NCBI GenBank assembly: GCA_020845955.1
Contig: JADLEU010000136.1
Location: forward strand, 1 to 35,598
Source: Anaerolineales bacterium
GTDB taxonomy: Bacteria > Chloroflexota > Anaerolineae > Anaerolineales > UBA6663
Direction of reading: 5' to 3'
DNA: 35,598 bases
The notes beneath the pieces were generated by a model, which ran no database searches, was not told the DNA's origin, and worked only from the letters and a program-made list of their open reading frames with translations. Below are positions 1,480 through 28,641 of this stretch, in pieces (the first letter of the stretch is position 1; each line of letters begins with the position of its first letter). The position numbers and the translations under genes are program-made.

Positions 1480-2532
1480 ATGAGACGTGCTGCTGGTTTA
1501 TTCAGTATGCTGGTCGTGGCCGCCATGTTGCTGGGCGCTTGCGGGCCGGCGGCCACCCCAACCGCGCAGGTAATCAAGGAAACGGTCGAAGTCCCTGTCG
1601 AAGTCACCAGTGTTCCCGGCGAAGTCGAAGTCGTCAGAATCAACGTGGGCTATGTCCCCGATCCCCAGTTTGCGCCCCTTTACGTCGGTGTGGAGAAGGG
1701 CTACTTCGCACAAGAGGGGCTGCAGATCGTCATAGACTACGCGACGACGGTTGATGGTGTCGAGCTGCTGTCCGCCGGGAAGATCCAGTTCTCCTTGAGC
1801 GGCGGAGACCAGTTGATCCAAGCCCGATCCCAAGGCCGGCCGCTTGTCCAGGTCCTGCGATGGTACAACGGGATGCCGTCCGCCATCTTCTCGCTCGCCG
1901 AAACGGGCATCGAGGGGCCTGAAGACCTGAAGGGCAAGACGGTAGGCATTCCGGGTATGTATGGACTCCAGTTGAGAGGCTGGATGGCCTTGCTAGAGGC
2001 GAATGGCCTGACTAGCGAAGATGTGACGTTGGAAGCGATTGGTTACACTCAAATGTCCGCCGTAACCGAAGGGTTGGTGGACGCGGCCATCGGCTACTCC
2101 AACAACGAGCCAGTGCAAATGGCGTTCCACGGCCAGGACATCAACGTCATCGAGATGGCGCCGTACGTGCACTTTCCGGCCATCGGGGTCATTACCACCG
2201 AGGATATGATCGCGAAGAATCCCGAGCTGGTGCAAAAGTTCGTGCGCGCCTTCCTGAAATCCGTGAAAGCCACCGTCGACGACCCGGCATTCGCTCTAGA
2301 CGCGGTTGTGAGCCAGGTCGCGTACAGCGGCGGCGACGCCCTCCCGTTGACCGAGGCCACGCTCAACAAGGCGATCGAGTTCTGGACGCCTATCGATGGC
2401 AAGTATGGCTTCATCAACATGGCGGATTACGAATGGTCCCAGGCGTGGTTGCTCGAGCAAGGACAGATGGATCAGGAGGTCGACTTGTCCAAGGCCTTCA
2501 CCAACGAGTTCGTGGAGAACGCCCAACCTTGA
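1480..2532 (+). CDS. ABC transporter substrate-binding lipoprotein, NMT1/THI5-like
   Basis: A 350-residue exported lipoprotein: basic start, hydrophobic stretch, lipobox LLGAC with Cys21, then a Pro/Thr linker and a KETVEVPVEVT-type stretch common in Chloroflexota lipoproteins. The mature part is a periplasmic binding fold of the NMT1/ThiY class (INVGYVPD.QFAPLYVGVEKGYFAQEGL..., later LKGKTVGIPG). AAGGAGG at 1467-1473 precedes the ATG by a good distance and fixes the start. Related proteins bind formylaminopyrimidine, riboflavin (RibY of the RibXY system known in Chloroflexus) or sulfonates; the ligand here is not determinable by eye. It is a second binding protein next to the same permease. 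Confidence 0.85.
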   Translation: MRRAAGLFSMLVVAAMLLGACGPAATPTAQVIKETVEVPVEVTSVPGEVEVVRINVGYVPDPQFAPLYVGVEKGYFAQEGLQIVIDYATTVDGVELLSAGKIQFSLSGGDQLIQARSQGRPLVQVLRWYNGMPSAIFSLAETGIEGPEDLKGKTVGIPGMYGLQLRGWMALLEANGLTSEDVTLEAIGYTQMSAVTEGLVDAAIGYSNNEPVQMAFHGQDINVIEMAPYVHFPAIGVITTEDMIAKNPELVQKFVRAFLKSVKATVDDPAFALDAVVSQVAYSGGDALPLTEATLNKAIEFWTPIDGKYGFINMADYEWSQAWLLEQGQMDQEVDLSKAFTNEFVENAQP

Positions 2533-2694
2533 CCAAGGGATGGGCGTGAGCAATGGCCCGCCCCTTCTGGGTCGATAGGCTGCTGGAGCGGCATGGGTAA
2601 CCTGTGCGCCAAAGCTCAATAGGAGACGGCCGGATGCTGGAGCGCGGCCTCCGGTAGAGACCGGCCTGAGCATCACAGCCGTAGCAGTACGACA

Positions 2695-2716
2695 GGGCAG
2701 GCCCTCGGGCCTGCCC
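2695..2716 (+). terminator. Rho-independent terminator of the ABC transporter genes
   Basis: GGGCAGGCC, a CTCG loop, then GGCCTGCCC: a 9-bp perfect stem followed by GTTCTTGTT, 160 bases past the lipoprotein stop codon. Confidence 0.6.
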
Positions 2717-2972
2717 GTTCTTGTTGGCCGGCCCTGCTGGCGGCCCCACGGCGATAAACCCGTCTGGCCGCGGCTGGCCACCCTTCTCGCGTTTGCGCTG
2801 CCAGGCGCCATCTCTTTCTCCATCTGCGGCGCGGGCCGGGAGGCACCCAACCGGCCCGCGCGCCGCTCCTCCTTGGGCCGAAAGTTCTCCCCTTGGGTGT
2901 TGAGTGTCGTGGTGTGATGCCGGAGGCAATCGCGGACGGCCGTGGCAGACCTCACCTCGGCCCATAAAACTC

Positions 2973-3003
2973 TTGTGGCAGGCAATAGGCTGGATGATAT
3001 AAT
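2973..3003 (+). promoter_or_regulatory. Promoter of the 147-residue hypothetical gene
   Basis: A perfect -10 TATAAT at 2998-3003 with TTGTGG at 2973-2978 as -35 (19-base spacing, slightly long). It lies 24 bases ahead of the ATG at 3028. Confidence 0.55.
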
Positions 3004-3027
3004 CGCTTTGTTTGGGGGCGACTCCGG

Positions 3028-3471
3028 ATGACTTCTCGCATGACTTCCAGCCAATTCATGCAGGCCTTGCCGGCGGCCACGCGCGCGCTGCTGCCGGCCG
3101 GGCTGCAGAAGATCCGCAGCAGCCATCGCAGTTGGCTGTGCCAGCTTTATTACCGCGACCCCCGGCTGCACTACGAGGTTTGGAATCTCGGCCCGCAGCG
3201 CGGGCGGCTGGAGGTGGGGCTGCACTTCGAGAGCCGCGACCGGGCGGTGAACGCCAGGCTGCTGACGGGCTTTTCGCGCCACATGGCGGAGGTCAAAGCA
3301 ACGCTCGGGCCCCAATGGGAGGCCGAGCCGTGGGACAGGGGCTGGAGCAAGGTGTACGAGGTGGCGCCGCTGCGGCCGTTCAGCGACGAGTTCCTGCAGG
3401 CCACTGCCACGCGGCTGGCCGAGGCCATGACAGTGCTGCAGCCAATCTGGGATTCGGTCAGTAAGTCTTGA
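3028..3471 (+). CDS. Hypothetical protein, 147 aa
   Basis: I do not recognise a family. The protein is soluble, has no signal peptide, and alternates helix-rich and strand-rich stretches (QLYYRDPRLHYEVWN, RLEVGLHFESRD, ...ATRLAEAMTVLQPIWDSV). It contains several tryptophans and aromatic residues typical of a folded domain, and the good promoter directly upstream supports expression. It ends tail-to-tail with the BON gene, overlapping it by 14 bases. A start at the second Met (3040) is possible. Confidence 0.6.
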   Translation: MTSRMTSSQFMQALPAATRALLPAGLQKIRSSHRSWLCQLYYRDPRLHYEVWNLGPQRGRLEVGLHFESRDRAVNARLLTGFSRHMAEVKATLGPQWEAEPWDRGWSKVYEVAPLRPFSDEFLQATATRLAEAMTVLQPIWDSVSKS

Positions 3472-3898
3472 CCCTGGCGGCGCGCACGCCCGGCACTGCC
3501 TGGGCGACAGCCAGGACGGCGCGGGCTTCGTCGTTGGTGAAGCGCCCCGCCAGGGTCACGTGCCGAAAGACGGAGGTGACCTGGTAGCCAGGCGGGATGG
3601 CCTCCGTGCGCGGGTCGGTGGCGAGGGCTTCGGCGACGTCGCGGCTGAGGGTGCCGTCGTCGACGAGCAGGTTGGTCAGGCCGGTGAGGCCAGGCAACTC
3701 GGCCACCGCGCGCCCGACCTCCACGGCCGCCATGGGCGACTGCACCGCGCCGCGCAGGGTGACGTGGCCATCGGCGACCTCGACTTCGACGTCAGCGCGC
3801 GAGCCGCGCACGAGGTCGAAGTTGTTCAGGACGTCGTGCACCTGGGCGTACAGGTCGAGATCCTGATCGGCGCGGACCGGGGCGAGGGTAGCATCCAT
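3458..3898 (-). CDS. BON domain protein (two BON repeats)
   Basis: A 146-residue protein with two BON-like modules. The first is at about residues 15-75 (VHDVLNNFD...VEVEVADGHVTLRGAV...VGRAVAELPGL) and the second at about 80-143 (VAEALATDPRT...VTSVFRHVTLAGRFTNDEARAVLAVAQAVPGV). Each shows the BON pattern of a helix, a 'V..G.V.L.G.V' strand pair and a final 'a...pGV..v' helix/strand. BON domains bind phospholipid or act as small structural modules in envelope stress proteins such as OsmY. No signal peptide is evident, so a cytoplasmic place is possible. The start was set at Met 3898, which follows the promoter at 3955-3983; an upstream in-frame start would lie on top of that promoter. Confidence 0.75.
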   Translation of the reverse strand: MDATLAPVRADQDLDLYAQVHDVLNNFDLVRGSRADVEVEVADGHVTLRGAVQSPMAAVEVGRAVAELPGLTGLTNLLVDDGTLSRDVAEALATDPRTEAIPPGYQVTSVFRHVTLAGRFTNDEARAVLAVAQAVPGVRAARVKTY

Positions 3899-3954
3899 CC
3901 GTGGGCTTCTCCTATGAATGTCGGCGCCGCCGGGCAGCGCGGCGGCCAATTGAG

Positions 3955-3983
3955 ACTATACCCCGCCGGGGCGGTTTTGTCAT
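3955..3983 (-). promoter_or_regulatory. Promoter of the BON-domain gene
   Basis: On the minus strand ATGACA (3983-3978) and TATAGT (3960-3955) are separated by exactly 17 bases. The -35 overlaps the -35 of the divergent GNAT promoter. Confidence 0.6.
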
Positions 3984-4004
3984 TGGCCATTCATCACGTA
4001 TAAA
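3977..4004 (+). promoter_or_regulatory. Promoter of the GNAT gene, probably giving a leaderless mRNA
   Basis: TTGTCA (3977-3982), 16 bases, TATAAA (3999-4004). Transcription would begin at about 4010-4012, right at the ATG at 4010, and no Shine-Dalgarno sequence precedes that codon. Confidence 0.5.
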
Positions 4005-4009
4005 TGATT

Positions 4010-4981
4010 ATGATAAGCCTGCGCCCGGCTACCCTGGCTGACGTGCCCGCCATCGTCGCCATCCACTGCTCCGACATCGTCGCCTGGAAACGTTGGGACA
4101 GCGAAGGGCTGGCACATCTGGCCGGCTATGCCGAACTGCGGCCCGACGAGCGCTGGCTGAACGGGGGGCCGTGGCTGGACGTCTCGACCTACGCGCACTA
4201 CCTGGAGCGGCTGCTGGCGCCCGAAAGCGGCGGGCTGGCGCTGGTGGCCGAGGCGCAGGGGCAGGTGCGGGCGGTGGCGGAGGCCTGGCTCGGAGAGGAG
4301 CCGCCGTTTGGGCGCAGCCTGGACATCGGCATCCTGTACACGCTGCGCGGGCACGCGGGCCAGGGACTAGGCTCGGCGCTGATGGAGGCGCTGCGGCGGC
4401 GCGCGGAAGCGGCCCGGTGCGACACGCTAACGGTGACGCACGCCGAGGCGCCGGGCTTCTATGCCAAGCATGGCTTCCAACCGAGCGAGACCTGGCGCCG
4501 GGTGCGCATGCCGGCGCTGGCGAGCAACATCGTCTACCAGGCACAGACGCTGGCGCCCGGCCCGTACGCGGCCGAGGGCGGCGTGCGGGGCTGGGCCATG
4601 CCGATCGGGCGCTACCAATCGGCGCGGCAGGAGTGGGAGCGCATCCGGCCGGGCGCGCCGCCCGAGTTCGAGGCGTGGCGCGGGCTGCGGCTGGAGGCGT
4701 GGCGGCTGACGGCGCGGCGTTCGCCGGCGGTGCTGGTGCTGGACGAGCAGCCGCGCGAGCGCGGCACGGCCGACGTGCACCTGTGGACGCCGCAGCGGGG
4801 GGTGTCGCGACAATTGCTGGCCGCGGTTCGCGACCGGGCCGCGCGCTCGGGCTTTGAGGCGCTGATGTTCTTTACCGCCGAGAGCGCCCTGGCCCAACTT
4901 GGACCAGGATGGCGCGACGATGGCTTCAAGCAGCAGGTGTGGGTTCAGGCGCGGGAACGGAACACTCGTTCGGCCAGATAG
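4010..4981 (+). CDS. GNAT family N-acetyltransferase, two-domain
   Basis: A 323-residue protein. The N-terminal half is a GNAT acetyltransferase: MISLRPATLADVPAIVAIH opens the fold, and the acetyl-CoA pyrophosphate loop is RGHAGQGLGSALM near residue 115-127, followed by 'FYAKHGFQP'. The C-terminal half (about 190-323) looks like a second, degraded GNAT domain without a clear R/Q-x-x-G-x-G/A loop (...RDRAARSGFEALMFF). The substrate is unknown. ATG 4010 is preferred over ATG 4004 because the -10 box covers 3999-4004. The gene is divergent from the BON gene with shared promoter DNA, hinting at joint control. Confidence 0.8.
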   Translation: MISLRPATLADVPAIVAIHCSDIVAWKRWDSEGLAHLAGYAELRPDERWLNGGPWLDVSTYAHYLERLLAPESGGLALVAEAQGQVRAVAEAWLGEEPPFGRSLDIGILYTLRGHAGQGLGSALMEALRRRAEAARCDTLTVTHAEAPGFYAKHGFQPSETWRRVRMPALASNIVYQAQTLAPGPYAAEGGVRGWAMPIGRYQSARQEWERIRPGAPPEFEAWRGLRLEAWRLTARRSPAVLVLDEQPRERGTADVHLWTPQRGVSRQLLAAVRDRAARSGFEALMFFTAESALAQLGPGWRDDGFKQQVWVQARERNTRSAR

Positions 4982-5040: not shown

Positions 5041-5320
5041 ACCTGGAAAAGCCTCCTGTGCCACCAGGGCTGAGGTCTCTGACGCACTCAGAAGGCCCGA
5101 GACGCTGACCCGGATCGCTCCCCGCGCACGCCACCGCGAGTGGCGGCGGGCTCGCACCCAACGCACTTTCCCGGCGACGCGTCTCCCGCTGGCCCGAGAT
5201 TCACCGTCAGACACTTGGCCATCGCGGAAGCCAAGCTGCCCTGGGCTCAAGTTCACAGCGAGGCTTTTCCATGCGCCGAGGCAGGTTGGGCGAACCCGAG
5301 TGGCTCGCCCGGTCTGTTTT
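5041..5320 (+). ncRNA. Candidate structured non-coding RNA, about 280 bases
   Basis: The segment lies between a promoter (5006-5034) and a hairpin terminator (5288-5320). It is closed by an 11-bp perfect long-range stem: 5045-5055 (GGAAAAGCCTC) with 5260-5270. Nested inside is CCAGGG, just 3' of the first arm, with CCCTGG shortly before the second. Local hairpins include GCCAC/GTGGC near 5135-5150 and CTTGGC/GCCAAG near 5214-5235, plus GTCTC/GAGAC near 5076-5104. The reading frames across it have no family character. I could not match it to RNase P, tmRNA, SRP, 6S or a riboswitch. A decayed mobile element with inverted ends is the main alternative; no target-site duplication is visible. Confidence 0.4.
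5288..5320 (+). terminator. Rho-independent terminator of the candidate RNA
   Basis: GGGCGA (5288-5293) pairs with TCGCCC (5305-5310), with an 11-base loop that can add a CC/GG pair, followed by GGTCTGTTTT. Confidence 0.55.
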
Positions 5321-5322
5321 AA

Positions 5323-5690
5323 GCGGCCGGTGTCAGCTTCTTGCCGCCCGATCCCTACACCTTCGCCGATCAGGCGCTGGCGGAGGCCCACCGCCTGGTT
5401 CAGGGATCGCGCATTTGGGGCTCGCGCCGGTGGTGGCCTGGCTGGCCGCGCGGCGGGACCGCGTGCCCTGCGCCGCGCCAGCCGTCGTCCACCGCGATTT
5501 TCATCCTGCCAGCATCGTGATGCGGCCGGCAGGAGGCGTGGCCGTTAGCGCTTGGACCTCACTGACCGTGACTGTACCGCGCCACGACCTGGTGTGGACG
5601 CTGCTGCCGGCCGGCAGCTATGCCGGGCCGGCCGTGCGGGCCGCCATCCTGGAGGCCTACAAACGTTACGCCCTCACCCCAGCTCACCCC
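5323..5690 (+). pseudogene. Aminoglycoside phosphotransferase-like (APH) gene remnant
   Basis: Only the C-terminal half of an APH/choline-kinase-like protein can be read, and it is broken. One frame gives FLPPDPYTFADQALAEAHRL up to about 5412. The sequence then continues in another frame with LAPVVAWLAARRDRVPC..PAVVHRDFHPASIVM...WTSL...RHDLVWTLLPAGSYAGPAVRAAILEAYKRY. The Brenner-type HxDFHP loop is present. The Mg-binding Asp of the usual 'DW' pair is Ala here (SAWTSL), and the start of the gene is missing. Downstream the frame simply runs into antisense of the phosphatase gene. This is a decayed gene. Confidence 0.65.
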
Positions 5691-5708
5691 CGCCGGGCGA
5701 GAGACATC

Positions 5709-6956
5709 CTAGCGGGCGTAGCGGCAGACGACCAGCAGGGTGATGTCGTCGTGCTGCGGCGCCGTGCCCTGAAAGGCCATGACTCGCGCCAGCAGCCGGT
5801 CGCAGAGCGCCTGGGCCGAGCCACTGACCGCGACCTCAGCCCGTAGGCTGCCGGCCAGGCGCGCCGACCCATAGGATTCGCCGCTCAAGGCACGGGCATC
5901 GGTGACGCCGTCGCTGAAAATCAGCAGCGCCCCGCCCGGCGGCAGCGTTATGCGGCCCTCATCGAGGGCCAGGTCGTCGAAGATGGCCAGCGGTTGACCG
6001 CGCTTCTGCGGCGGCCGGGTCACGGTTCCATCGGGCGCGGCCACTAGGGGCAACTCGTGGCCGGCGCGAGCGTAGGCCACCTCACCGGTGGCAAGTTCCA
6101 GCCGGGCGGACAGCGCCGTTACGAACACGTCGAGCCGGTTCATGCCCAACAGCAAGCGATTGACCTGCCGCAACGCTGCGGCCGGCTCGGCGCCGCGGCT
6201 GGCTTCGGCGCGAAGCAGCGCCAGGGCCTGGGCCATGAAGATGGCGGCGGGCATGCCCTTGTCGGCCACGTCGCCGATGACCAGGTTCACGGCGGCCGGT
6301 CCGGACGGCACGCCATCGTAGAGGTCGCCGCCCACCGCGCGGGCTGGCGCCATCCGCGCGCCAAAGTCGTAGCCCGGCGCGGGCGGCCAGGCTTGCGGCA
6401 GCAGGCCCATCTGGATCTCGTGCGCCAACCGCAGATCGCGTTCGAGCCTTTCCTTTTCGATGAGCTGGACCTGGGCCGCCTGCAGCGCCTCGTAGGCGGT
6501 CTGGAGCTGCTGGTTGCGCTGGCGCAGATCAGTGATGATGGCGTTTTGCGTGGTGGTCAGGCGGTCACTCATGACGCGCACCATCTCGTAGGCCAGCAGT
6601 GGATAGCGATGGAGCAGGACGTCGAATTCCGCCCGGCGCATCTCCAGCAGATCGGCTGTCTCAATGACGCGCACCGAGGCGGTGCGGCGCCCGTCGCGGT
6701 TGAGGAGGCTCATTTCGCCCAAGAAGTCCCCGGGACCGCGTAGGGCCAGCCGGCGCTCATCAGGCGTGCCCAGGCCTTTGACGACCTCCACGCGGCCGCT
6801 GACGATCACATAGAAGTGATCGCCGCACTCGTCTTCATAAAACAGCACCGTGCCAGCCGGCGTGTGGCAGGGCCGCAGCGAGGCCCACAACTTGTCCAGC
6901 TCGTCGGGCGGCACTGTGGCGAAAAGCTTTAGGCGCGCTAAAATACTATCGGGCAT
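5709..6956 (-). CDS. Cyclic-nucleotide-binding domain / SpoIIE-type PP2C phosphatase
   Basis: A 415-residue soluble signalling protein. Residues about 8-125 form a cNMP-binding/CRP-like domain (ATVPPDELDKLW..., PAGTVLFYEDECGDHFYVIVSGRVEVVKG, GDFLGEMSLLNRDGRRTASV). A coiled-coil linker follows (about 145-190, QRNQQLQTAYEALQAAQVQLIEKERLERDL). The rest is a SpoIIE/RsbU PP2C phosphatase with the metal-binding motifs GGDLYD, GDVADKG and, at the end, HDDITLLVV. Such proteins dephosphorylate anti-sigma-factor antagonists in response to a ligand; neither target nor ligand is visible nearby. The start was set at MPDSILARL (6956), where the domain begins; the ORF extends 20 codons further upstream. Confidence 0.85.
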   Translation of the reverse strand: MPDSILARLKLFATVPPDELDKLWASLRPCHTPAGTVLFYEDECGDHFYVIVSGRVEVVKGLGTPDERRLALRGPGDFLGEMSLLNRDGRRTASVRVIETADLLEMRRAEFDVLLHRYPLLAYEMVRVMSDRLTTTQNAIITDLRQRNQQLQTAYEALQAAQVQLIEKERLERDLRLAHEIQMGLLPQAWPPAPGYDFGARMAPARAVGGDLYDGVPSGPAAVNLVIGDVADKGMPAAIFMAQALALLRAEASRGAEPAAALRQVNRLLLGMNRLDVFVTALSARLELATGEVAYARAGHELPLVAAPDGTVTRPPQKRGQPLAIFDDLALDEGRITLPPGGALLIFSDGVTDARALSGESYGSARLAGSLRAEVAVSGSAQALCDRLLARVMAFQGTAPQHDDITLLVVCRYAR

Positions 6957-7064
6957 TGGCCGTAGTCTCCTATCCCGAGCCGCGCCCCCTTTCCTGCAGG
7001 ACACCGGCGCGTTCACGTTGGCGCGCCGGCGCCAGCGCCTATCTTAGCGCAGTCAGGTGAAAGC

Positions 7065-7259
7065 ATGAAGGTCGAGAATCTCGCCTCGGCGCACGTGCCC
7101 CAGGCCAGCGCACTGCTGGCCGCCCGGCATGGCCGCGATCGGCAGAGGTTGGCCGAGTTCCTGCCGCGCATGGCTGCCCTGGCGGAGGCCGAAGTGGCCA
7201 CGGCCGCCGCCTGGCAGCGCCCGCGGGCCAGCGGCGTGGCCGCGCTGGAGGGGGGCTAG
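7065..7259 (+). pseudogene. N-terminal fragment of a GNAT-type acetyltransferase
   Basis: Sixty-four codons with an ATG and a stop. The text (VENLASAHVPQASALLAARH...RPRASGVAALEGG) resembles the start of GNAT proteins that begin with an 'ASALLAARH' helix and a 'GVVAL.GG' strand just before the acetyl-CoA domain, but the catalytic part is absent. The stop codon comes exactly where the central strand should continue. The DNA that follows is repeat-like, so the gene was probably truncated by rearrangement. A functional micro-protein cannot be excluded. Confidence 0.45.
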
Positions 7260-7623
7260 GGCAAATTCTCGATGAGTGTCAGGCGCGGATGCGGCGTCAA
7301 CGGTGTCAACGGATGGGCAACGGACCAACGGATCAACCCCCGCGGGGGCAAAGCCCGCACGCCCCCCTGGCACCGCCCGCCACACCGCCCCCGTGGGGGG
7401 TGCAGGGGGGCAGGTGTTTCCCGGCCGCGGGCCGAGAGACGGCCGGCGGAGCTGGCGCAGCACCAACCTGCTAGCCGCGCGCTTCTGTTCTGGCCGCGCC
7501 AGGCTTTGCGGCCGATGCGCCGCCGGCAGGCGCGCCGAGTAGACGCGCGGGCGATGTGGGCGATGGGAGGTGGGTGAGCGCGTGAGTGGGAGAGTAGGAG
7601 AGTGGAGGCGAGAGGCGCCGGAG
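7260..7623. repeat. Intergenic repeat-rich region, 364 bases
   Basis: No gene is seen. The segment holds a GTCAACGG-type short repeat (about 7293-7336), a C-rich block containing one arm of a 24-bp repeat that recurs inverted at 9915-9938, and a purine-rich run at about 7575-7612 (GTGAGTGGGAGAGTAGG and similar). The same mix of elements appears at 9746-9960. This suggests a dispersed intergenic repeat family rather than regulatory DNA of one gene. Confidence 0.5.
7360..7383 (+). repeat. 24-bp dispersed repeat, copy 1 (inverted copy at 9915-9938)
   Basis: The 24 bases starting CGCCCCCCTGGCACC match exactly the reverse complement of 9915-9938. The two copies flank the MtaA-like and glucokinase genes. 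Confidence 0.7.
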
Positions 7624-8652
7624 CTAGTGGCCGTGGGCGGCGGCGACCATGGCGCGCAGGTTGGCGGTAGGGACTTGCGGCCAGAGGTCGCAGCCAGGCC
7701 AGATCGCATCGGCCCCCGCGGCCCGAGTGGCGGCGACGGCCGCGCGCACCTGGGTTTCGTCGCCGCCGGCCAAGAGGCCAACCGGGTCGAGGTTGCCAAA
7801 GAGCAGCGGCTCTGGTCCCAAGGCCGCGCGCGAGGCGGCCAGGTCATTGGCCTGATCCACGCTGAGCGCGTCGGCGCCGGCCGCGGCCAGCAGCGGCAGG
7901 CCGCGGTTGGTGCGGCCACAGACGCTGAGCACCCGCGGGGCCGGCAGCGCGGCCAACAACTGCTGCAGGCGCGGCAGCACCAAGCGTTCGAAGGGGCGCG
8001 GGCCGATAAAGCCCGGCGAGCCGCCCATCTCGTGCACGGTGATGAAGTCGGCGCCGCTGGCCCGGTAGAGCTGGCCGACATCGGCCAGCAGCGGCGTGAG
8101 TTGGTCGAGCAGGTCTCCGACGGCAGCCGGGGCCTCGCTAAGCTCCAGCAGCAGCGGGCCGGGATTCACGACCTGCATCGCCAGGGTGAAGGGACCGGGG
8201 ATCACGGCGCCGAGCACGATCTCGCCGCCCACATCTGCCTTGACCCGCTCAAGGGCCTCTGCCACCACTGGCAGCCGCCCGCGGCGCGCGAGCGGCCCGG
8301 CGCCGGGCAAGCGGAACGCCGCCGCCGATTCGGCCACGGTCTGCGCCACGCGGGGGAACTCGGCGCGCGGTTCGCCGGCGCGGAAATCGACGGCCGCGCC
8401 CAAGCCCTCGGCCTCGACGCACAAATCGCACGGCAGCACTGCCGATTCAAACCCGGCCAACCGGTAAGGGCTGGCGGCCACCGCGGCCAACCGGCCGGAG
8501 TCGGCGTGGATGGCGCTGAAGGCCAGACCGAGGCTGTCGAGCGCCGGCTGGGTGACGCTGATCAGCCCGCTGAAGCACGGCGTCCGGCCCGGCCGGCGGC
8601 CAGCCAGCAGCGCGAGCACACCGGCGCGAGCATTCGGAGTGGCGGTCGTCAT
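7624..8652 (-). CDS. MtaA/UroD-like corrinoid methyltransferase-family protein
   Basis: A 342-residue protein with the fold markers of the uroporphyrinogen decarboxylase/MtaA/CmuA family: PALDSLGL...HADSGRLAAVAASPYRLAGFES, VIPGPFTLAMQV, VHEMGGSPGFIGPRPFERLVLP, GADALSVDQAND, LFGNLDPVGLL and GADAIWPGCDLWP. Methylcobamide:CoM methyltransferases bind zinc through H-x-C...C. Here the Cys residues remain (C245, C321) but the His is Ser243 (LSVCGR). Either another residue serves or the protein is not a classical methyltransferase. No corrinoid protein or partner methyltransferase is in view. ATG 8652 is chosen over a TTG at 8673. It is divergent from glucokinase. Confidence 0.75.
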   Translation of the reverse strand: MTTATPNARAGVLALLAGRRPGRTPCFSGLISVTQPALDSLGLAFSAIHADSGRLAAVAASPYRLAGFESAVLPCDLCVEAEGLGAAVDFRAGEPRAEFPRVAQTVAESAAAFRLPGAGPLARRGRLPVVAEALERVKADVGGEIVLGAVIPGPFTLAMQVVNPGPLLLELSEAPAAVGDLLDQLTPLLADVGQLYRASGADFITVHEMGGSPGFIGPRPFERLVLPRLQQLLAALPAPRVLSVCGRTNRGLPLLAAAGADALSVDQANDLAASRAALGPEPLLFGNLDPVGLLAGGDETQVRAAVAATRAAGADAIWPGCDLWPQVPTANLRAMVAAAHGH

Positions 8653-8675
8653 CGGCGCGAAGGTTAGGCGCAATT

Positions 8676-8710
8676 GGCAGGAACGTCAACCCGTCAGGTT
8701 CCTGCCTGAC
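8676..8710. promoter_or_regulatory. Overlapping inverted repeats between divergent genes, possible operator
   Basis: GGCAGGAAC (8676-8684) is mirrored by GTTCCTGCC (8698-8706). Overlapping it, GTCAGG (8693-8698) and CCTGAC (8705-8710) form a second palindrome with 6-base spacing. Both lie in the 91-base gap between the MtaA-like gene and glucokinase. Confidence 0.35.
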
Positions 8711-8743
8711 AATTCGCTAGAGTGAAGGTGGAGGGCGACGCCC

Positions 8744-20821: not shown

Positions 20822-21490
20822 ATGATACGCGTCGTCGTCGCAGAAGACCACATCCTGGTTCGGCAGGGCATCGTCAAGCTGCTGGAGGGCGCCGGTGACA
20901 TCGAGGTCGTCGGCGAAGCCGACAATGGCCGGGCGGCGGTAACGGCGCTCAAGGCCGTGCACCCCGACGTGCTGGTGCTGGATCTCACCATGCCCAAGCT
21001 CGATGGGCTGGACACTCTGGCGGAAATCAAGGGGATGAAGGATAGGCCCCAGGTGGTCGTGCTCTCGATGCACGCCGACCCGGGCCTGATCCGGCAGGCG
21101 CTGCAAACCGGGGCCTTGGGCTACGTAGTAAAACAATCGGTCGCGGACGAGCTGCTGGCGGCGGTCCGGGCAGCGCGCCAAGGCAGCATGTTCCTAAGCT
21201 CGGGGGTCTCGGGATTGATCGCCAACAACTTCTTCGGCGAGCAGGAGCGCAATTTGCTCGACAACCTGTCGCCGCGCGAGCGGGAAGTGGTCAAGCGCGT
21301 GGTGGAGGGCTACTCGGCGCGCGAGATTGCCGAAAGCCTGCGGACCAGCGTCAAGACCGTGGAAAAGCAGCGGCGCGATGCCATGCGCAAGCTGGAAGTG
21401 GACAACCTGGCCAGCCTGGTGCGCGTCAGCCTGGAGCTTGGCCTGGTAGTCAGCCGGCCAACGCACGCGAGCAGCCAGTATCCCGCGTGA
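20822..21490 (+). CDS. NarL/FixJ-family response regulator
   Basis: A 222-residue transcription factor. The receiver domain has acidic pocket E8-D9, phospho-acceptor Asp54 (DVLVLDLTMPKLDG), Thr/Ser 'VVLSMHAD' and Lys in 'GYVVKQS'. The C-terminal LuxR-type helix-turn-helix is LSPREREVVKRVVEGYSAREIAESLRTSVKTVEKQRRDAMRKL. ATG 20822 follows GGAAGGGAA. The last codon overlaps the start of the glycerol kinase-like gene (GTGA at 21487-21490), meaning ribosomes can pass from one to the other. Likely targets are promoters of the downstream glycerol genes (inference from position). Confidence 0.9.
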   Translation: MIRVVVAEDHILVRQGIVKLLEGAGDIEVVGEADNGRAAVTALKAVHPDVLVLDLTMPKLDGLDTLAEIKGMKDRPQVVVLSMHADPGLIRQALQTGALGYVVKQSVADELLAAVRAARQGSMFLSSGVSGLIANNFFGEQERNLLDNLSPREREVVKRVVEGYSAREIAESLRTSVKTVEKQRRDAMRKLEVDNLASLVRVSLELGLVVSRPTHASSQYPA

Positions 21491-22983
21491 CAACCTACAT
21501 CCTGGGCATCCACCAAAGAACCGCCGGTGTGCGCGTCGTCATCCTCGACCGCAAGGCGAACGTGGTTGCCTCCGCTTACGCGGACATCCACCAATATCAT
21601 CCCCAGCCCGGCTGGTCGGAGCACGACGCCAACGAGATCTGGCACGTGACGCAGACGGTGACGGCCGAGGCGCTGCACAACGGCCGAATTGCGCCCGAAC
21701 AGATCGAAGCGATCGGCGTCACCAACCAGCGCGACACGACTGTTTTTTGGAACAAGGGCACCGGCGAGCCGGTTGGCCGCGCGATCGTCTGGCACGACCA
21801 GCGCACCCTCGGGCTGTGTGAGCAGCTGATTGCCCGTGACAGGCAGGGCATTGAGGCTCGCACGGGCATGAGCATTGTGCCCGACGTCACCGCCGCCAAG
21901 ATCCGCTGGCTGATGGACAACGACCAGGCCGTGCAGAAGGGCATCACGCGCGGCGAGCTGCTGTGCGGCACCATCGACAGCTGGCTGATCTGGAACCTGT
22001 CGGGGCGCCGCGTGCATGTCACCGATCATTCCAACGCTTCAGTGACGCTGCTGCAGAATGCCAGCTCGTTGACGTATGACGACGGCATCCTCAACCTGCT
22101 CGGCATCCCGCGCGAAATCCTGCCTGAGCCGCGCCGGTCCAGCGAGGTATATGCGGAGACGGACCCGGCCATGTTCTTTGGGGTGCGGGTGCCGATCGCC
22201 AGCGCCGGCGGGGACCAGCAACTGGCGGTGCTGGGGCAGGCCGGCGTTGCGATCGGCATGGCCAAGAACACGTACAGTTCGGGCTCGTTTATGCTGCTCA
22301 ACACCGGCCCGCGTTATCTGCCGCCGGCCAGCGGCTTGTTCGCCCCGGTGTTGTGGACCCTCGGCGACACGGTGGTGTACGGCCTGGAGGGCAAAGCCGA
22401 CGTCGCGGGCGATGCCATTCAATGGCTGAGAGACGGGCTCGGCATCATCCGTGAGCCGGGGGAGGCGGAAGGCCTGGCAGGTCAGGTGCCCGACACCGAG
22501 GGCATCTACTTCGTGCCGCCGGTGGGCGGTTCAGACGTCGTGCGCTCAGGCGCCTACGCCCGCGGCGCCATTCTCGGCATCACCCGCAGCACGACGCGCC
22601 ATCACGTGGCGCGCGCCGCGCTGGAAGCCATGGCCTACCAGACGCGCGACTTCCTGGAAGTCGTCGCGCTGTACACGCCCGAGCTGACCCCACGGACGCT
22701 GCGGGCGGATGGCCGCCTGGCCAAGAGCGACTTCTTGTTGCAGTTCCAGGCCGACATTTTGGGGCTGCCCGTGGAGCGGCCGGTATATACCAACACCGCC
22801 GTCCTGGGCGCGGCCTACCTGGCCGGGCTGGCTGTGGGTTATTGGGCGTCGCTGGACGAGGTCGTGGCCTGCTGGAAGCGCGAGTGTTGGTTCGAGCCTC
22901 GGCTGCCAGAATCCCGCCGGGACGAGCTGTATCACGGTTGGCAGCGCGCCATCAAACAAGTCAAGAGCGCGGCGAAACCCTAA
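21487..22983 (+). CDS. Glycerol kinase-like protein with degenerate active site (FGGY pseudokinase)
   Basis: A 498-residue homologue of GlpK along its whole length, but with changes at conserved positions. The phosphate loop DQGTT is HQRTA (residues 9-13), so the metal/ATP Asp is lost. NQRET is NQRDT (Glu to Asp83). The glycerol-contact Tyr of 'PYFSG.K' is Asp133 (PDVTAAK). The nucleotide loop TYGTGC is TYSSGS, and the adenine-site 'VDGG' is ADGR. The GDQQ motif (D243, Q244) and AIVW remain. Comparison is with E. coli GlpK and with the intact copy at 24236. It starts at GTG 21487, overlapping the regulator stop. It probably does not phosphorylate glycerol and may sense glycerol or control the two-component pair (inference). 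A kinase with a different substrate is the alternative. Confidence 0.8.
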   Translation: MTTYILGIHQRTAGVRVVILDRKANVVASAYADIHQYHPQPGWSEHDANEIWHVTQTVTAEALHNGRIAPEQIEAIGVTNQRDTTVFWNKGTGEPVGRAIVWHDQRTLGLCEQLIARDRQGIEARTGMSIVPDVTAAKIRWLMDNDQAVQKGITRGELLCGTIDSWLIWNLSGRRVHVTDHSNASVTLLQNASSLTYDDGILNLLGIPREILPEPRRSSEVYAETDPAMFFGVRVPIASAGGDQQLAVLGQAGVAIGMAKNTYSSGSFMLLNTGPRYLPPASGLFAPVLWTLGDTVVYGLEGKADVAGDAIQWLRDGLGIIREPGEAEGLAGQVPDTEGIYFVPPVGGSDVVRSGAYARGAILGITRSTTRHHVARAALEAMAYQTRDFLEVVALYTPELTPRTLRADGRLAKSDFLLQFQADILGLPVERPVYTNTAVLGAAYLAGLAVGYWASLDEVVACWKRECWFEPRLPESRRDELYHGWQRAIKQVKSAAKP

Positions 22984-23352
22984 CCCCCGCCGATCAAAAG
23001 CTCCACGCCGATGGATTACGTCAAATGCTCCCTTGGCGTATTGGCCTACTCCATTTAGGCTCTCCCATCAGGCATTTCCTCTCTGGATCGGGCGGAATAC
23101 CTGATTCCCAAGCGCCATTCTCCGTGCAACAATAACAAAATCCGGCGCGACCTGCTGACCAGGCCGCTGGCGAGCGAACACCGCCATTCCCCGGCAGGTC
23201 CCCTGCAACCTGCCTCGGCTTCACCCTGAACGATCCGCGCGCGCGCTTAGCGCCAGGGGAGGTGAACCACCAAACGAGAGTTCTCCACGCGGCAAACCCG
23301 TCAAATGCGCAAAGGCGCGGACCTGTCCCCAACAAGCAAAAGGAGAAATGCA
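22984..23352. other. Intergenic region before glpF, 369 bases, likely regulatory
   Basis: It separates the regulator block from glpF-glpK-glpA. It contains a GGAAT/ATTCC dyad (23094-23098 and 23104-23108), an AT-rich patch (23127-23142), and a leader hairpin (23193-23214). No convincing -35/-10 pair was found. The length and location suggest the main control region of the glycerol genes. Confidence 0.4.
23193..23214 (+). promoter_or_regulatory. Leader hairpin upstream of glpF
   Basis: GGCAGGT (23193-23199) and ACCTGCC (23208-23214) enclose an 8-base loop. It may be part of the glpF leader RNA or an operator. Confidence 0.3.
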
Positions 23353-24147
23353 ATGAAAGAAAAAGGGTTGGTTAGCCAGCTGATCGGCGAGGTCCTGGGG
23401 ACCTTTGTCCTGATCCTGCTCGGCGATGGAGTGGTCGCCAATGTTGGGTTGGCCCCGCGGCTGGCGGGAACAGCCTACGACTGGAACACGATCACCCTCG
23501 GATGGGCCTTCGCGGTGATTGTAGCGGTGTATATCTCGGCCGGCGTGTCGGGCGCACATATCAATCCCGCCGTCACCCTCGCATTGGCAGTCAGACGCGA
23601 CTTCCCCTGGGCCAAGGTGGTCCCCTACATCCTGGCGCAGATGGTCGGCGCCTTCCTGGGCGCGCTGGGTGTGTACCTGGTCTATCGCGACGGTCTGGTC
23701 TCGGCCGGCCTGCCGAACGTGTGGGCCACCGGGCCGGGCTCGGTCTTCGAGGCCGCTTTCTGGGGTGCTGCCAGCTCAGGTCGGGTCGGCGGCTACTCGC
23801 TGACGACGGCCATCATCGCGGAGTTCTTTGGCACGGTAGTGCTGATGTGGGGCGTCCTGGCCAGCGGCGATTCGAAGAACACTGGCTTGCTGAACAACCT
23901 GGGGCCGTTCCTGGTCGGCGGCACCGTGCTGGCGGTCGGCCTGTCGCTGGGCGGCCCGAGTGGCTATTCTATCAACCCGGCCCGCGACCTCGGCCCGCGC
24001 ATCTTTGGCGCCCTGGCCGGCACCCAGAACCTGTTCAGCGGCCTCTACTGGCTCGTTCCGCCGGTGCTGGTCCCGGCCATTGCCGGCCCGATCGGCGCCA
24101 TCCTGTACGACCTGTTTGTGTCCGCCAATCTGCCGGAGAAACGCTAA
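23353..24147 (+). CDS. glpF: Glycerol uptake facilitator (aquaglyceroporin)
   Basis: A 264-residue membrane channel of the MIP family. Both half-helix signatures are present: SGAHINPAVT and GYSINPARDLGPR. The Asp after the second NPAR is typical of glycerol-conducting members. About six hydrophobic spans are visible. AAAAGGAG at 23338-23345 places the start at ATG 23353 rather than at 23305. It is followed 88 bases later by glpK, with a 15-bp hairpin between them. It lets glycerol enter by diffusion, where GlpK traps it. Confidence 0.93.
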   Translation: MKEKGLVSQLIGEVLGTFVLILLGDGVVANVGLAPRLAGTAYDWNTITLGWAFAVIVAVYISAGVSGAHINPAVTLALAVRRDFPWAKVVPYILAQMVGAFLGALGVYLVYRDGLVSAGLPNVWATGPGSVFEAAFWGAASSGRVGGYSLTTAIIAEFFGTVVLMWGVLASGDSKNTGLLNNLGPFLVGGTVLAVGLSLGGPSGYSINPARDLGPRIFGALAGTQNLFSGLYWLVPPVLVPAIAGPIGAILYDLFVSANLPEKR

Positions 24148-24150
24148 GCC

Positions 24151-24193
24151 GTGGAGACAGCGGCCGCCTGAGCCGGGGGGCCGCTGTCTCCAC
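24151..24193 (+). terminator. Perfect 15-bp hairpin between glpF and glpK
   Basis: GTGGAGACAGCGGCC (24151-24165) and its exact complement (24179-24193) around a 13-base loop, 3 bases after the glpF stop. There is no T-run, so it may set relative mRNA levels of glpF and glpK by partial termination or by protecting the 3' end. Confidence 0.55.
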
Positions 24194-24235: not shown

Positions 24236-25732
24236 ATGGCCAAGTACGCTGCCGCAATCGACCAGGGCACGACCAGCACTCGCTTCATGATTTTCGATCA
24301 CGCGGGCAAGGTGGTGGGCCTGGATCAAAAGGAACACGAGCAGATTTTCCCGAAGCCCGGCTGGGTTGAGCACGATCCGATGGAGATCTGGGCCGCCACG
24401 CAGTCCGTGATTTCGGGGGCGCTGGCGCGCACCGGCGTGGACCCCAAGGATATCGCCGCCGTCGGCGTGACTAACCAGCGCGAGACGACGGTCGTGTGGG
24501 AGAAGGCGACGGGCAAGCCGGTCTACAACGCCATCGTCTGGCAAGACACCCGCACCGACACCATCTGTAACCAGCTGGCCAAGGACGGCGGCCAGGACCG
24601 CTTCCGCGCGCGCGTCGGGCTGCCGCTGGCCACGTATTTCTCGGGCCCGAAGATCAAGTGGATCCTGGACAACGTGCCGGGCGTGCGCGCCAAGGCCGAG
24701 GCGGGCGAGGCGCTCTTCGGCAACATCGACACCTGGGTCATCTGGAACCTAACCGGCGGCCCGAACGGCGGCGTGCACGTGACCGACGTGTCGAACGCCA
24801 GCCGCACGATGCTGATGAACCTGGAAACGCTGGACTGGGACCCCGAGATCCTCAAGATCATGGGCGTGCCGCGCGCGATGCTGCCGGCCGTCCGCCCATC
24901 GTCGGAAGTGTACGGCAAGGCGATCGGCGCGCTGGCGGGCATCCCAGTCGCCGGCGACCTGGGCGACCAGCAAGCCGCGCTCTTCGGCCAGACCTGCTTC
25001 TCAGCCGGCGAGGCTAAGAACACCTATGGCACGGGCTGCTTCATGCTGCTGAACACCGGCACCAAGCCGGTGCAATCGAAGAATGGTCTGCTGACCACGC
25101 TGGGCTACAAGATCGGCGACCAACCGGCCGTTTACTGCCTGGAAGGCTCCATCGCCATCACCGGCGCGCTGGTGCAGTGGCTGCGTGATAACCTGAACCT
25201 GATCCAGAAGTCGTCGGACGTCGAAGCGCTGGCGGCCACGGTCGAGGACAACGGCGGCATCTACTTCGTGCCGGCCTTCTCGGGCCTGTTCGCGCCCTAC
25301 TGGAAGAACGACGCGCGCGGGGTGATCGTGGGCATGACCCGCTACGTGAACAAGGGCCACATCGCCCGCGCCGCGCTGGAGGCGACCGCCTTCCAGACGC
25401 GCGAGGTGCTGGACGCGATGAACGCCGACTCGGGCGTGAACCTGACCGCGCTGAAGGTGGACGGCGGCATGGTCTACAACGAGATGCTGATGCAGTTCCA
25501 GGCCGACGTGCTGGGCGTGCCCGTCATCCGGCCGACGGTGGCCGAGACCACCTCGCTGGGCGCCGCGTACGCCGCCGGGCTGGCCGTGGGCTTCTGGAGC
25601 CAGGTGGAAGACCTGCGCGCCAACTGGGGCAAGGACAAGGAGTGGCGCCCGAAGATGGACGCCGCTCACCGCGAGAAGATCTACAAGGGCTGGAAGAAGG
25701 CCGTGACCCGGACCTTTGACTGGGTTGAGTAA
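24236..25732 (+). CDS. glpK: Glycerol kinase
   Basis: A 498-residue FGGY kinase forming sn-glycerol 3-phosphate from glycerol and ATP. All expected residues are present: DQGTT (9-13), NQRET with Arg82-Glu83, Tyr134 in [16 protein letters not shown] with Asp244-Gln245, [18 protein letters not shown] and VDGG. AAAGGAAGAGG precedes ATG 24236. It belongs to the glpF-glpK-glpA row and is the functional counterpart of the degenerate copy upstream. Confidence 0.96.
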
Positions 25733-25753: not shown

Positions 25754-25795
25754 TGAGAAGCCTGGAAACCCTCAGCCGGGTTTCCAGGCTTCTCA
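25754..25795 (+). terminator. Perfect 18-bp hairpin between glpK and glpA
   Basis: TGAGAAGCCTGGAAACCC (25754-25771) is matched without error by 25778-25795 around a 6-base loop. It follows the glpK stop by 21 bases. No T-run follows. It separates the kinase from the dehydrogenase genes. Confidence 0.6.
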
Positions 25796-25840: not shown

Positions 25841-26998
25841 ATGGCAGCCCCACACGTTATCGTCATCGGCGCCGGTTCCACCGGCGCCGCCACGGCCCAC
25901 GACCTGGCGCTGCGCGGCCTGCGCGTGACGGTCCTGGAGCGCGGCGAAATCGCCAACTGCACCACGGGCCGCAACCACTGCCTGCTGCACTCGGGCGGGC
26001 GCTACTGCGTCAAGGACCAGGAGTCGGCCATCGAATGCATCGATGAGAACCTGATCCTGCGCCGCATCATGCCCGACGCGATGGAATTGAACGGCGGGCT
26101 GTTCGTGGCGCTGAACGAGGCCGACCTGGCCTTTCGCGAGAAGTTCATCGAGGGCTGCGAACAGTGCCACATCCCCTACCGCGAGGTCCCGGTCAAGCGG
26201 GCCCTGGAGATGGAGCCATTCCTAAACCCAGGCCTGCTGGCGGCCGTGCAGGTGCCTGACGGGGTGTTCGAGCCGTTTCGCTTCTGCCTGGCTTTCCTGG
26301 CGACGGCCCGGCATAACGGGGCCGTGGTGCGCACTTACACCGAGGTGACCGAGTTAGCGCGCGCGGGCCAGTTCATCACCGGGGTCAAAGTGCTCGACCA
26401 CCGCACCGGCAAGACGCAAGAGATCGGGGCCGACCTGGTGGTGAATGCCACCGGCCCGTGGGCAGGCCGCATCGCCGAGATGGGCGGGGTCGAGGTGCCG
26501 GTGGCGCCGACCGCCGGGGTGATGGTCACCGTGGACCAGCGCCTGTGCAACCTGGTCATCAACCGGATGGATAAGCCTGCAGATGGCGATATCGTCGTGC
26601 CGCAGCGCCTGACGTCGATCATCGGCACGACGTCGTGGGCCATCCTGGACCCCGACCAGATCGAGATCCCCAAAGCGCATATCGAGAAGATGATCCAGAA
26701 GGGCCGGGAGCTGATCCCCGCCATCCAGCGGCGTGTGACGCGCGGGGTGGGTGCCGCGGCGCGGCCATTGATCCGCAAGGCGAACACCGACGAGCGCGAA
26801 GTCAGCCGCACGTTTGAGTGCTTCGACCACCAGCGCGACGGGGTCGACGGGTTTGTGACGATTTCGGGCGGGAAGACCACTACCGCGCGGGCCATGGCCG
26901 AAAAGGCCGCCGACGTGGTATGCGCCAAGTTGGGGCAGCGCGCCGAATGCGCTACCCGGACCACGCCGCTGCTGTCGTACCGGCTGTTCTATAACTAA
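25841..26998 (+). CDS. glpA: FAD-dependent glycerol-3-phosphate dehydrogenase, GlpA-like, short form
   Basis: A 385-residue flavoprotein. The FAD loop is VIGAGSTGAATAHDLALRG (G10-x-G12-x-x-G15). TTGRNHCLLHSGGRYCVKD, NGGLFVAL, VPDGVFEPFRF, VNATGPWAG, DADI-like DGDIVVPQ, IIGTTSW and DGVDGFVTISGGKTTTARAMAEKAADVVCAKLG follow the E. coli GlpA text closely. It stops where E. coli GlpA goes on for about 130 residues with a BFD-like iron-sulfur domain, so that domain is missing. It oxidises glycerol 3-phosphate to dihydroxyacetone phosphate. Only 8 bases separate it from the SdhB-like gene, implying one complex. ATG 25841 begins the FAD fold. Confidence 0.9.
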   Translation: MAAPHVIVIGAGSTGAATAHDLALRGLRVTVLERGEIANCTTGRNHCLLHSGGRYCVKDQESAIECIDENLILRRIMPDAMELNGGLFVALNEADLAFREKFIEGCEQCHIPYREVPVKRALEMEPFLNPGLLAAVQVPDGVFEPFRFCLAFLATARHNGAVVRTYTEVTELARAGQFITGVKVLDHRTGKTQEIGADLVVNATGPWAGRIAEMGGVEVPVAPTAGVMVTVDQRLCNLVINRMDKPADGDIVVPQRLTSIIGTTSWAILDPDQIEIPKAHIEKMIQKGRELIPAIQRRVTRGVGAAARPLIRKANTDEREVSRTFECFDHQRDGVDGFVTISGGKTTTARAMAEKAADVVCAKLGQRAECATRTTPLLSYRLFYN

Positions 26999-27006
26999 GG
27001 CTTGCC

Positions 27007-27765
27007 ATGGCCATCCAGGTTCCCATCAAGGTTTTCCGCTACCGGCCGGGAACAGCGCCGCATTTTGAGCGCTACCAGGTGACGGTGCCCGACGACGCCA
27101 CGGTGATCGACGTCATCGAAGGAGTGTGGGCCGAGCACGACCGCAACTTCATGTTCCGCCACGCCTGCCATCACGCCTCGTGCGGCACCTGCGCGGTGCG
27201 CCTGAACGGCTATGAGCGCCTGCCGTGCATCGTGCCGGTCACAGAGGCCCTGGCCGGCCGGCAGGAACTCGTCGTCGAGCCGCTGCGCAACTTTCCGCTG
27301 GTGGGCGACCTGGTGGTGGATGTGGCGGGCTTCTTCCAGAAGCAGGCCGCCTCGGGCCTGGTCATTACGCGCGCGGCCGAGGCAACGCTGAGCGGGCAGC
27401 CGTTCGCGCACAGCGAGCTCTTCAGCCAGGCGGGCGCGCTGGAAGAGCGGGCCTACAACCGCTTCGAGAACTGCATCGAATGCGGCATCTGCATCAGCGC
27501 CTGCCCAACCATGGCCGCGACCGACAAGTTCTGGGGCCCGGCGGCGTTGGCCGGCATTCGCCGCGCCACCCTGACCACCGGCGACTGCCAGGAAAAAGCC
27601 GCGCTGCTGGCGTTGGCGGATAGCGAGCAAGGGGTGTGGCGCTGCCACAGCGCGTTCGAATGCACCGAGTCCTGCCCGCAGGATGTGGACCCCGGCGGGG
27701 CCATTATGAGCTTGCGGCGCGAAATCGTGGGGCGCAAGGTGAAGCACCTTTTCGGGGCCGGGTGA
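27007..27765 (+). CDS. SdhB/FrdB-like iron-sulfur subunit, partner of GlpA
   Basis: A 252-residue electron-transfer subunit of succinate dehydrogenase/fumarate reductase type. Ligands are complete: [2Fe-2S] C54-x4-C59-x2-C62-x11-C74; ferredoxin-type C156-x2-C159-x2-C162-x3-C166-P; and C213-x5-C219-x3-C223-P for the second and third clusters. It is not GlpC, which lacks the plant-type [2Fe-2S] domain. In normal loci it sits next to SdhA, but here its partner by position is GlpA, and no SdhA gene is in view. It would pass electrons from the flavin to the membrane subunits encoded just downstream (4-base gap). Confidence 0.88.
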   Translation: MAIQVPIKVFRYRPGTAPHFERYQVTVPDDATVIDVIEGVWAEHDRNFMFRHACHHASCGTCAVRLNGYERLPCIVPVTEALAGRQELVVEPLRNFPLVGDLVVDVAGFFQKQAASGLVITRAAEATLSGQPFAHSELFSQAGALEERAYNRFENCIECGICISACPTMAATDKFWGPAALAGIRRATLTTGDCQEKAALLALADSEQGVWRCHSAFECTESCPQDVDPGGAIMSLRREIVGRKVKHLFGAG

Positions 27766-27769
27766 ACAC

Positions 27770-28186
27770 ATGAGCGCGCCGCCGGGAGCTAAGGGCATGC
27801 AAGCGGAAAAAAGCACAAGACCACGCCAGGTGTGGCAATGGGCCGATGTGCGCCGGCGCAAGCTGGGCATGTGGGCCTACACGCTCAACCGCGTCAGCGG
27901 GCTAGGGCTGGTGCTGTACCTGTTTATTCACCTGGCCGTGCTCAGGCTGCTGGCGGGCGGACCGGCGGCCTGGGACAACTTCCTGGCGCTGGTGCGCTCG
28001 CCGCTGTTCCTGGTGCTGGACGTGGTGCTGCTGGCTGGCCTGCTGATCCACGGGCTGAACGGCATCCGCCTGACGATCACCGGGCTGGGCATCGGAGTGC
28101 CGGCGCACAAGACCTGGTTCCTGGCGCTGATGGCAGCGGCGCTGATCCTGAGCGCCGCGGGCGCCATCGCCATATTCACGATGTAG
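27770..28186 (+). CDS. SdhC-like cytochrome b membrane anchor subunit
   Basis: A 138-residue protein with three membrane segments (about 44-62, 78-98 and 114-136). It has the SdhC-type motif NRVSG (Arg41, Ser43, quinone-site positions), His54 in the first helix, and His94 in LIHGLNGIR, the heme-ligand motif. It anchors the dehydrogenase and reduces quinone. ATG 27770 starts 4 bases after the iron-sulfur gene; ATG 27797 is a possible alternative. Confidence 0.82.
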   Translation: MSAPPGAKGMQAEKSTRPRQVWQWADVRRRKLGMWAYTLNRVSGLGLVLYLFIHLAVLRLLAGGPAAWDNFLALVRSPLFLVLDVVLLAGLLIHGLNGIRLTITGLGIGVPAHKTWFLALMAAALILSAAGAIAIFTM

Positions 28187-28193
28187 GGACAGC

Positions 28194-28574
28194 ATGGAAA
28201 ACACGGTCGACACGCACACCGCCCGGCCGCGGGCGGGGCTGAGCAGCCTAAGCTGGCTGGCGCAGGCGATTAGCGGCGTGGCCCTCATCGTTCTGGCCGG
28301 GCTGCACATGGTCGCCAATCACTTCGTGGTCGAGGGCGGGCTGCGCAATTTCGCCGACGCGCAGGCCTACCTGAGCCATCCGGTCATCCTGCCGTTGGAA
28401 ATCCTTTTCCTGATCGGCGTGACGATCCACGCGCTGCTGGGCGTGCGCGCCATCCTGTTCGACCTGGGATTGAGCGACCAAGCTGAAGTACGCGTTACTC
28501 AAGCACTGGCCGTCATCGGGATTGTGACGATCGGCTATGGGCTGTGGTTGACGTGGGTGGTGATTACGTTTTAG
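28194..28574 (+). CDS. SdhD-like cytochrome b membrane anchor subunit
   Basis: A 126-residue protein with three membrane segments (about 25-45, 63-88 and 103-124). It pairs with the SdhC-like protein: AQAISGVALIVLAGLHMVANHF with His38 and His43, and IHALLGVRAILFD with His79. With two His-bearing helices in each anchor, a two-heme cytochrome b is possible. It is the last gene of the row before a strong hairpin. Confidence 0.8.
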   Translation: MENTVDTHTARPRAGLSSLSWLAQAISGVALIVLAGLHMVANHFVVEGGLRNFADAQAYLSHPVILPLEILFLIGVTIHALLGVRAILFDLGLSDQAEVRVTQALAVIGIVTIGYGLWLTWVVITF

Positions 28575-28604: not shown

Positions 28605-28641
28605 CAACGCGCCAGCAGCTGCCCGAGCCGCTGGCGCGTTG
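28605..28641 (+). terminator. Hairpin terminator of the glycerol dehydrogenase operon
   Basis: CAACGCGCCAGC (28605-28616) and its complement (28630-28641) form a 12-bp perfect stem with a 13-base loop, 30 bases after the last stop codon. There is little T after it. Confidence 0.5.

Follow-up and report, generated by a model that had tools for sequence, protein, structure and literature searches.

The question raised by this locus is what kind of enzyme is encoded where the gene for a glycerol-3-phosphate (G3P) dehydrogenase flavoprotein, GlpA, runs straight into genes for B, C, and D subunits of the succinate dehydrogenase (SDH) type. The window studied here, a stretch of 35,598 nucleotides, is contig C136 of an Anaerolineales bacterium assembly (G000). 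Its + strand carries glpF, glpK, glpA, sdhB, sdhC, and sdhD, in that order. The product of glpF (23305..24147), an MIP-family glycerol channel, scored 171.0 bits against TIGR00861 (cut-off 171.25), and the glycerol kinase encoded by glpK (24236..25732) scored 760.4 bits against TIGR01311, above the cut-off of 590. They are followed by glpA (25841..26998; TIGR03377), encoding a short GlpA-type FAD-containing G3P dehydrogenase of 385 aa; by an sdhB-like gene (27007..27765) for an iron-sulfur subunit of 252 aa (TIGR00384, 167.6 bits, cut-off 88); and by two membrane anchor genes, sdhC-like (27770..28186; 138 aa, 50.8 bits) and sdhD-like (28194..28574; 126 aa, 46.6 bits), the products of which both exceeded the cut-off of PF01127 (Sdh_cyt). 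H54 and H94 of SdhC and H38 and H79 of SdhD are probable haem ligands. The glpA-sdhB, sdhB-sdhC, and sdhC-sdhD gaps were 8, 4, and 7 bases, and these distances, together with the coordinates that the first-pass annotation had assigned to the four genes behind glpF and glpK, proved exact on re-checking. None of sdhA, glpB, and glpC was present at the locus.

A hairpin with a perfect 18-bp stem lies between glpK and glpA (25754..25795, + strand; fold energy -40.7 kcal/mol, z -8.8) and is a possible terminator or processing site. The 16-bp, 94% complementary hairpin located 3' of sdhD (28605..28641, + strand) possibly marks the end of the unit; its folding was not significant against shuffled sequences (z -1.68). 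A third hairpin was found 3' of glpF (24151-24193). All three are without T runs, and they follow glpF, glpK, and sdhD as if closing each unit. The window also contains a second glycerol-kinase-like gene (21487-22983; 514.5 bits, TIGR01311 cut-off 590), directly 3' of genes for a PAS histidine kinase and a LuxR-type response regulator, and its product may have a substrate other than that of glycerol kinase.

The flavoprotein is a truncated form of GlpA. Its match to TIGR03377 covered model positions 1-377 of 530 with 455.9 bits (cut-off 552.8), so that the protein does not qualify as a full-length GlpA equivalog, and the C-terminal domain (positions 378-530) is missing. The absence of this BFD-like iron-sulfur domain, already noticed in the first-pass annotation, was borne out by the cysteines of the tail: there were none in the window GlpA, which ends at residue 385, or in its SdhB-linked relatives, whereas GlpABC-type GlpAs had four to six, one short row excepted. 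Residues R54, Y55, R308, R323, and K345 correspond to R54, Y55, R317, R332, and K354 of GlpD, which we take to be the residues of its G3P site; they were invariant in all 40 SdhB-linked rows and are identical in Escherichia coli GlpA.

We then considered whether the window SdhB, SdhC, and SdhD might simply belong to an ordinary SDH of the same organism. The assembly comprises 6.06 Mb, with a listed completeness of 100% and a contamination of 4.4%. The short GlpA occurred in it as a single copy; the two further matches, at E 2e-14 and 2e-11, were remote. Contig C33 encodes an SdhA that exceeded the cut-off, with a fused SdhCD (333 aa, two Sdh_cyt matches) ahead of it and an SdhB of its own behind it. 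This separate, complete SDH (sdhCD-sdhA-sdhB) means that the window SdhBCD set is surplus to the SDH and not borrowed from it, and the idea that an ordinary SdhA borrows the window subunits was rejected; the situation which would have spoken for it, an sdhA elsewhere in the genome with no further sdhBCD set, was not found. As for GlpB, no protein of G000 was above the cut-off (best E 3e-4), and thus the short GlpA has no GlpB partner; the earlier observation that SdhA, GlpB, and GlpC are lacking holds for the locus and, in the case of GlpB, for the whole genome. The same assembly carries an odd splitting of a complex II module (L045, G000:C89:8000-19000; ORFs 2116-3918, 3899-4297, 5147-6562, 6559-6933, and 6991-8715), in which SdhA/FrdA-like flavoproteins stand beside stand-alone proteins of 124-132 aa resembling the N-terminal 2Fe-2S domain of SdhB. 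Neither a 4Fe/3Fe half nor an anchor was seen there, and probable regulator genes adjoin.

The arrangement is conserved far beyond chance. Adjacent glpA and sdhB were found at 57 non-identical loci spanning Chloroflexota, Actinomycetota, and two Verrucomicrobiota bins. Of these, 55 also had sdhC and 53 had sdhD; at least 27 had glpK upstream, many of the loci being incomplete. A conserved neighborhood without sdhA, for which the first-pass annotation had proposed to search, therefore exists in three phyla, and an accident of assembly or of the locality was rejected. In a scan with each species represented by a single genome, there were 25 related loci; in 15 of them, glpA was followed by sdhB and sdhC, and also by sdhD unless the contig ended first. 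These 15 came from Chloroflexota including Thermoflexus, a Nitriliruptorales bin (97 kb contig), and the two Verrucomicrobiota bins, whose loci lie on short contigs and could be misbinned. GlpA proteins 54-73% identical to that of the window were found in 16 of 60 relatives, all 16 with sdhB adjacent (one cut by a contig end), while loci with GlpA of 38-46% identity had no sdhB, and those inspected further carried glpB and glpC. A GlpA-like gene at L062:1501-2583 (- strand; 45% identity, ~365 aa) had no adjoining sdhB and fell outside the SdhB-linked clade. The short GlpA was present in 12 of 396 Actinomycetota genomes, each time with sdhB, sdhC, and sdhD. Among the matches listed for plasmid records, there was no GlpA-SdhB pair of this type.

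The two proteins also occurred together. In 400 Chloroflexota genomes, drawn evenly, GlpA was found in 22, the GlpA-linked type of SdhB in 22, and both in 21 (Fisher p 1e-32, kinship among genomes ignored). The genome with GlpA and no full SdhB (G207) had an SdhB fragment beside glpA, running off the contig. G329, the apparent case of such an SdhB without GlpA, was rejected: it has an ordinary sdhA-sdhB-sdhC-sdhD operon with the SDH-type 2Fe-2S loop CRSAICGSC. Judging from gene order, this could be the kind of operon from which glpA-sdhBCD arose by replacement of sdhA. Genomes of the same order with an intact hybrid SdhB had a separate SDH-type SdhB too.

Trees built quickly, in which the branches around the join were long, placed 37 GlpA-linked SdhBs in one clade against 24 SDH SdhBs (support 99) and 39 short GlpAs in one clade against 15 of the GlpABC type (support 99). 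Pairwise distances of GlpA and SdhB were correlated (r 0.88 over 37 pairs; the largest value in 5000 permutations was 0.25), which is owed in part to shared species history.

All cofactor ligands expected of a complex II iron-sulfur subunit are present in the window SdhB: C54, C59, C62, and C74 for [2Fe-2S]; C156, C159, C162, and C223 for [4Fe-4S]; and C166, C213, and C219 for [3Fe-4S]. These 11 columns were 100% Cys in the GlpA-linked set; in the SDH set, the C62 column was mostly Asp and the other ten were likewise 100% Cys. The 2Fe-2S loop, which in complex II faces the flavoprotein, was consistently unlike that of the SDH set, and the column of E. coli SdhB Trp 163, a residue near the quinone site, was mostly Ala; the SDH set was mostly from Chloroflexota, so both contrasts are with SDHs of that class. 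The loop pattern CHHxxCGxC was dropped as a full diagnostic, given that Actinomycetota have C[FLS]H and that SDH, too, can have the second His. In the anchors, SdhC H54 was conserved in 54 of 54 rows and H94 in 53 of 53, as were SdhD H38 and H43 (54 of 54) and H79 (53 of 53). The invariant pairs H54/H94 and H38/H79 would fit two bis-His b haems.

Whether GlpA could sit on such an SdhB was addressed by structure prediction. In one Thermoflexus locus (L027), glpA and sdhB share one frame with a single stop between them; with the stop read as a residue, this gave a single-chain query of GlpA, a linker of ~45 residues, and SdhB (51 input rows, 12 paired). AlphaFold2 returned a pLDDT of 84 and a pTM (confidence score) of 0.86, with the linker (384-427) disordered. 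GlpA makes up 57% of the chain, and we estimate that a pTM of ~0.6 would be expected if SdhB were not confidently placed. A control joining GlpK and GlpA of the same locus in the same way reached a pTM of 0.54; its two parts were for the most part well folded, and it had 6 paired rows versus 12. Thus, the predictor confidently docked GlpA on SdhB and left the control pair undocked, in line with the role first proposed for GlpA from gene order. The best solved match of the model was GlpD (2qcu, Z 32.6); SdhB chains were not among the matches listed, all of which were taken up by the GlpA part.

Taken together, we consider it very likely that glpA-sdhBCD encodes a membrane-bound G3P:quinone oxidoreductase that uses the scaffold of complex II, with GlpA in the place of SdhA. 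The replacement of SdhA by GlpA, which had been proposed from the window, is supported by the conservation without sdhA, by the surplus SdhBCD set, and by the predicted docking. Assembly of the complex in vivo, its activity and haem content, the type of quinone, and the direction of the reaction are what we infer from genes and models. Glycerol would enter via GlpF and be converted to G3P by GlpK, and GlpA would oxidize G3P to dihydroxyacetone phosphate (DHAP) at a site with the residues of GlpD. Electrons would then leave FAD through the SdhB-like [2Fe-2S], [4Fe-4S], and [3Fe-4S] clusters and reach quinone where SdhB, SdhC, and SdhD meet; the histidines of SdhC and SdhD probably hold two b haems.

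A challenge to a four-subunit enzyme came from genomes with split operons. At eight loci (L030, L031, L033, and L035-L039), the short GlpA had no sdhB alongside. As counter-examples, these orphans were rejected, because seven of the eight genomes retain a GlpA-type SdhB in trans; in the eighth (G066), only an SDH-type SdhB was found. The trans SdhBs fell inside the GlpA-linked clade, near Thermoflexus, and their nesting there indicates that the operon was probably broken later. One of them (G061, L122) lay directly 3' of glpF-glpK, and the distance correlation within the seven trans pairs was 0.83. They were without adjoining sdhCD. In four of the eight genomes, a second SdhCD pair was found next to the SDH genes and on the other strand from them; no second pair was seen in the other four, of which G062, G063, and G065 had one pair only. 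Not every genome with the short GlpA would therefore have the complete complex of four subunits. At L152-L155 (G067, G068, G064, and G066), the second sdhC-sdhD pair was divergent in sequence and faced the sdhCD-sdhA-sdhB operon in convergent orientation; it could pair with the GlpA-type SdhB. The split-operon genomes, with their SdhB lacking sdhCD and, in three cases, a single SdhCD pair, are what speaks for a GlpA-SdhB enzyme of two subunits, soluble or loosely bound, to which SdhCD would be optional or shared with SDH. We regard this as unlikely, since SdhC is present in 55 of 57 intact operons, the histidines of the anchors are invariant, and the window has both anchors.

The direction and the substrate of the reaction were also considered. 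Complex II scaffolds run both ways, and genomics is silent on direction; the same complex might therefore work mainly in reverse, as a quinol-driven DHAP reductase, or act on a different 2-hydroxy phosphate. This seems distinctly improbable to us, with glpF-glpK just upstream in the window, glpK recurring upstream elsewhere in the family, and substrate-site residues shared with both GlpD and E. coli GlpA. Least probable of all is co-transcription without a complex, in which SdhBCD would be a second SDH or fumarate reductase module for a separate SdhA and GlpA would act alone like GlpD: SdhB normally pairs with SdhA, and an SdhA exists on C33, but it has its own SdhB and SdhCD, the GlpA-linked SdhB never occurred without the short GlpA in the 400 genomes and was kept even where the genes separated, and GlpA is predicted to dock on it.

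With a GlpA-SdhBCD oxidoreductase as the preferred reading, we lean towards a history in which GlpA displaced SdhA once in an sdhABCD-type operon, kept a dedicated SdhBCD set, and spread over Chloroflexota and Actinomycetota; the operon would then have broken up in one lineage, with GlpA and SdhB kept and their own anchors lost or replaced. One genome (G004, L126:2192-11111) carries glpA-sdhBCD and a complete glpABC ~2 kb apart, a finding not fully explained by one having simply replaced the other. Fusions of GlpA and GlpB in one frame of ~990-1050 aa were found in the glpABC clusters of related Chloroflexota (L127:2290-5250, L065, and L067).

Compared with known systems, the window enzyme shares with E. 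coli GlpABC the catalytic core of GlpA and its active-site residues; however, its GlpA is without the C-terminal four-Cys domain, and SdhBCD replaces GlpBC at the locus. With complex II (e.g., 1nek and 1kf6), it shares a three-cluster SdhB and a pair of Sdh_cyt anchors whose histidines are invariant, but its flavoprotein is GlpA (DAO fold) instead of SdhA, and its SdhB belongs to a separate clade. GlpD, whose solved structure is nearest in fold to the GlpA part, likewise delivers G3P electrons to quinone; unlike the window operon, it is a single subunit without iron-sulfur or haem subunits. The nearest precedent is archaeal. From synteny, glpA followed by sdhB, sdhC, and sdhD-like genes has been described in Thermofilum-related archaea (PMC11962113, 2025), with GlpA-SdhBCD of Thermofilum pendens drawn in its Fig. 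9b and membrane anchoring and electron transfer proposed. The likeness to the window lies in gene arrangement, the order being the same, whereas the window family is bacterial. Our literature search found no other paper describing this arrangement and no biochemical description of a bacterial or archaeal GlpA-SdhBCD. The first-pass annotation, to which no biochemical description of such a complex was known, has to be corrected on novelty: the gene arrangement was already in print. The novelty of the bacterial family lies in its distribution, whereas the concept is not new.

The same paper states that bacterial glpA co-occurs consistently with glpB and glpC (PMC11962113), and the glpA-sdhBCD loci correct this statement. 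In genomes with such loci, SdhB, SdhC, and SdhD calls should not be taken for succinate dehydrogenase. Several of the genomes with the operon are from Thermoflexus, a genus that includes a cultured species, and this opens the idea to experiment. Complex II would appear here as an exchangeable wiring module for another flavoenzyme, and many bacteria without a recognizable glpB would have a direct route for electrons from glycerol to the membrane.
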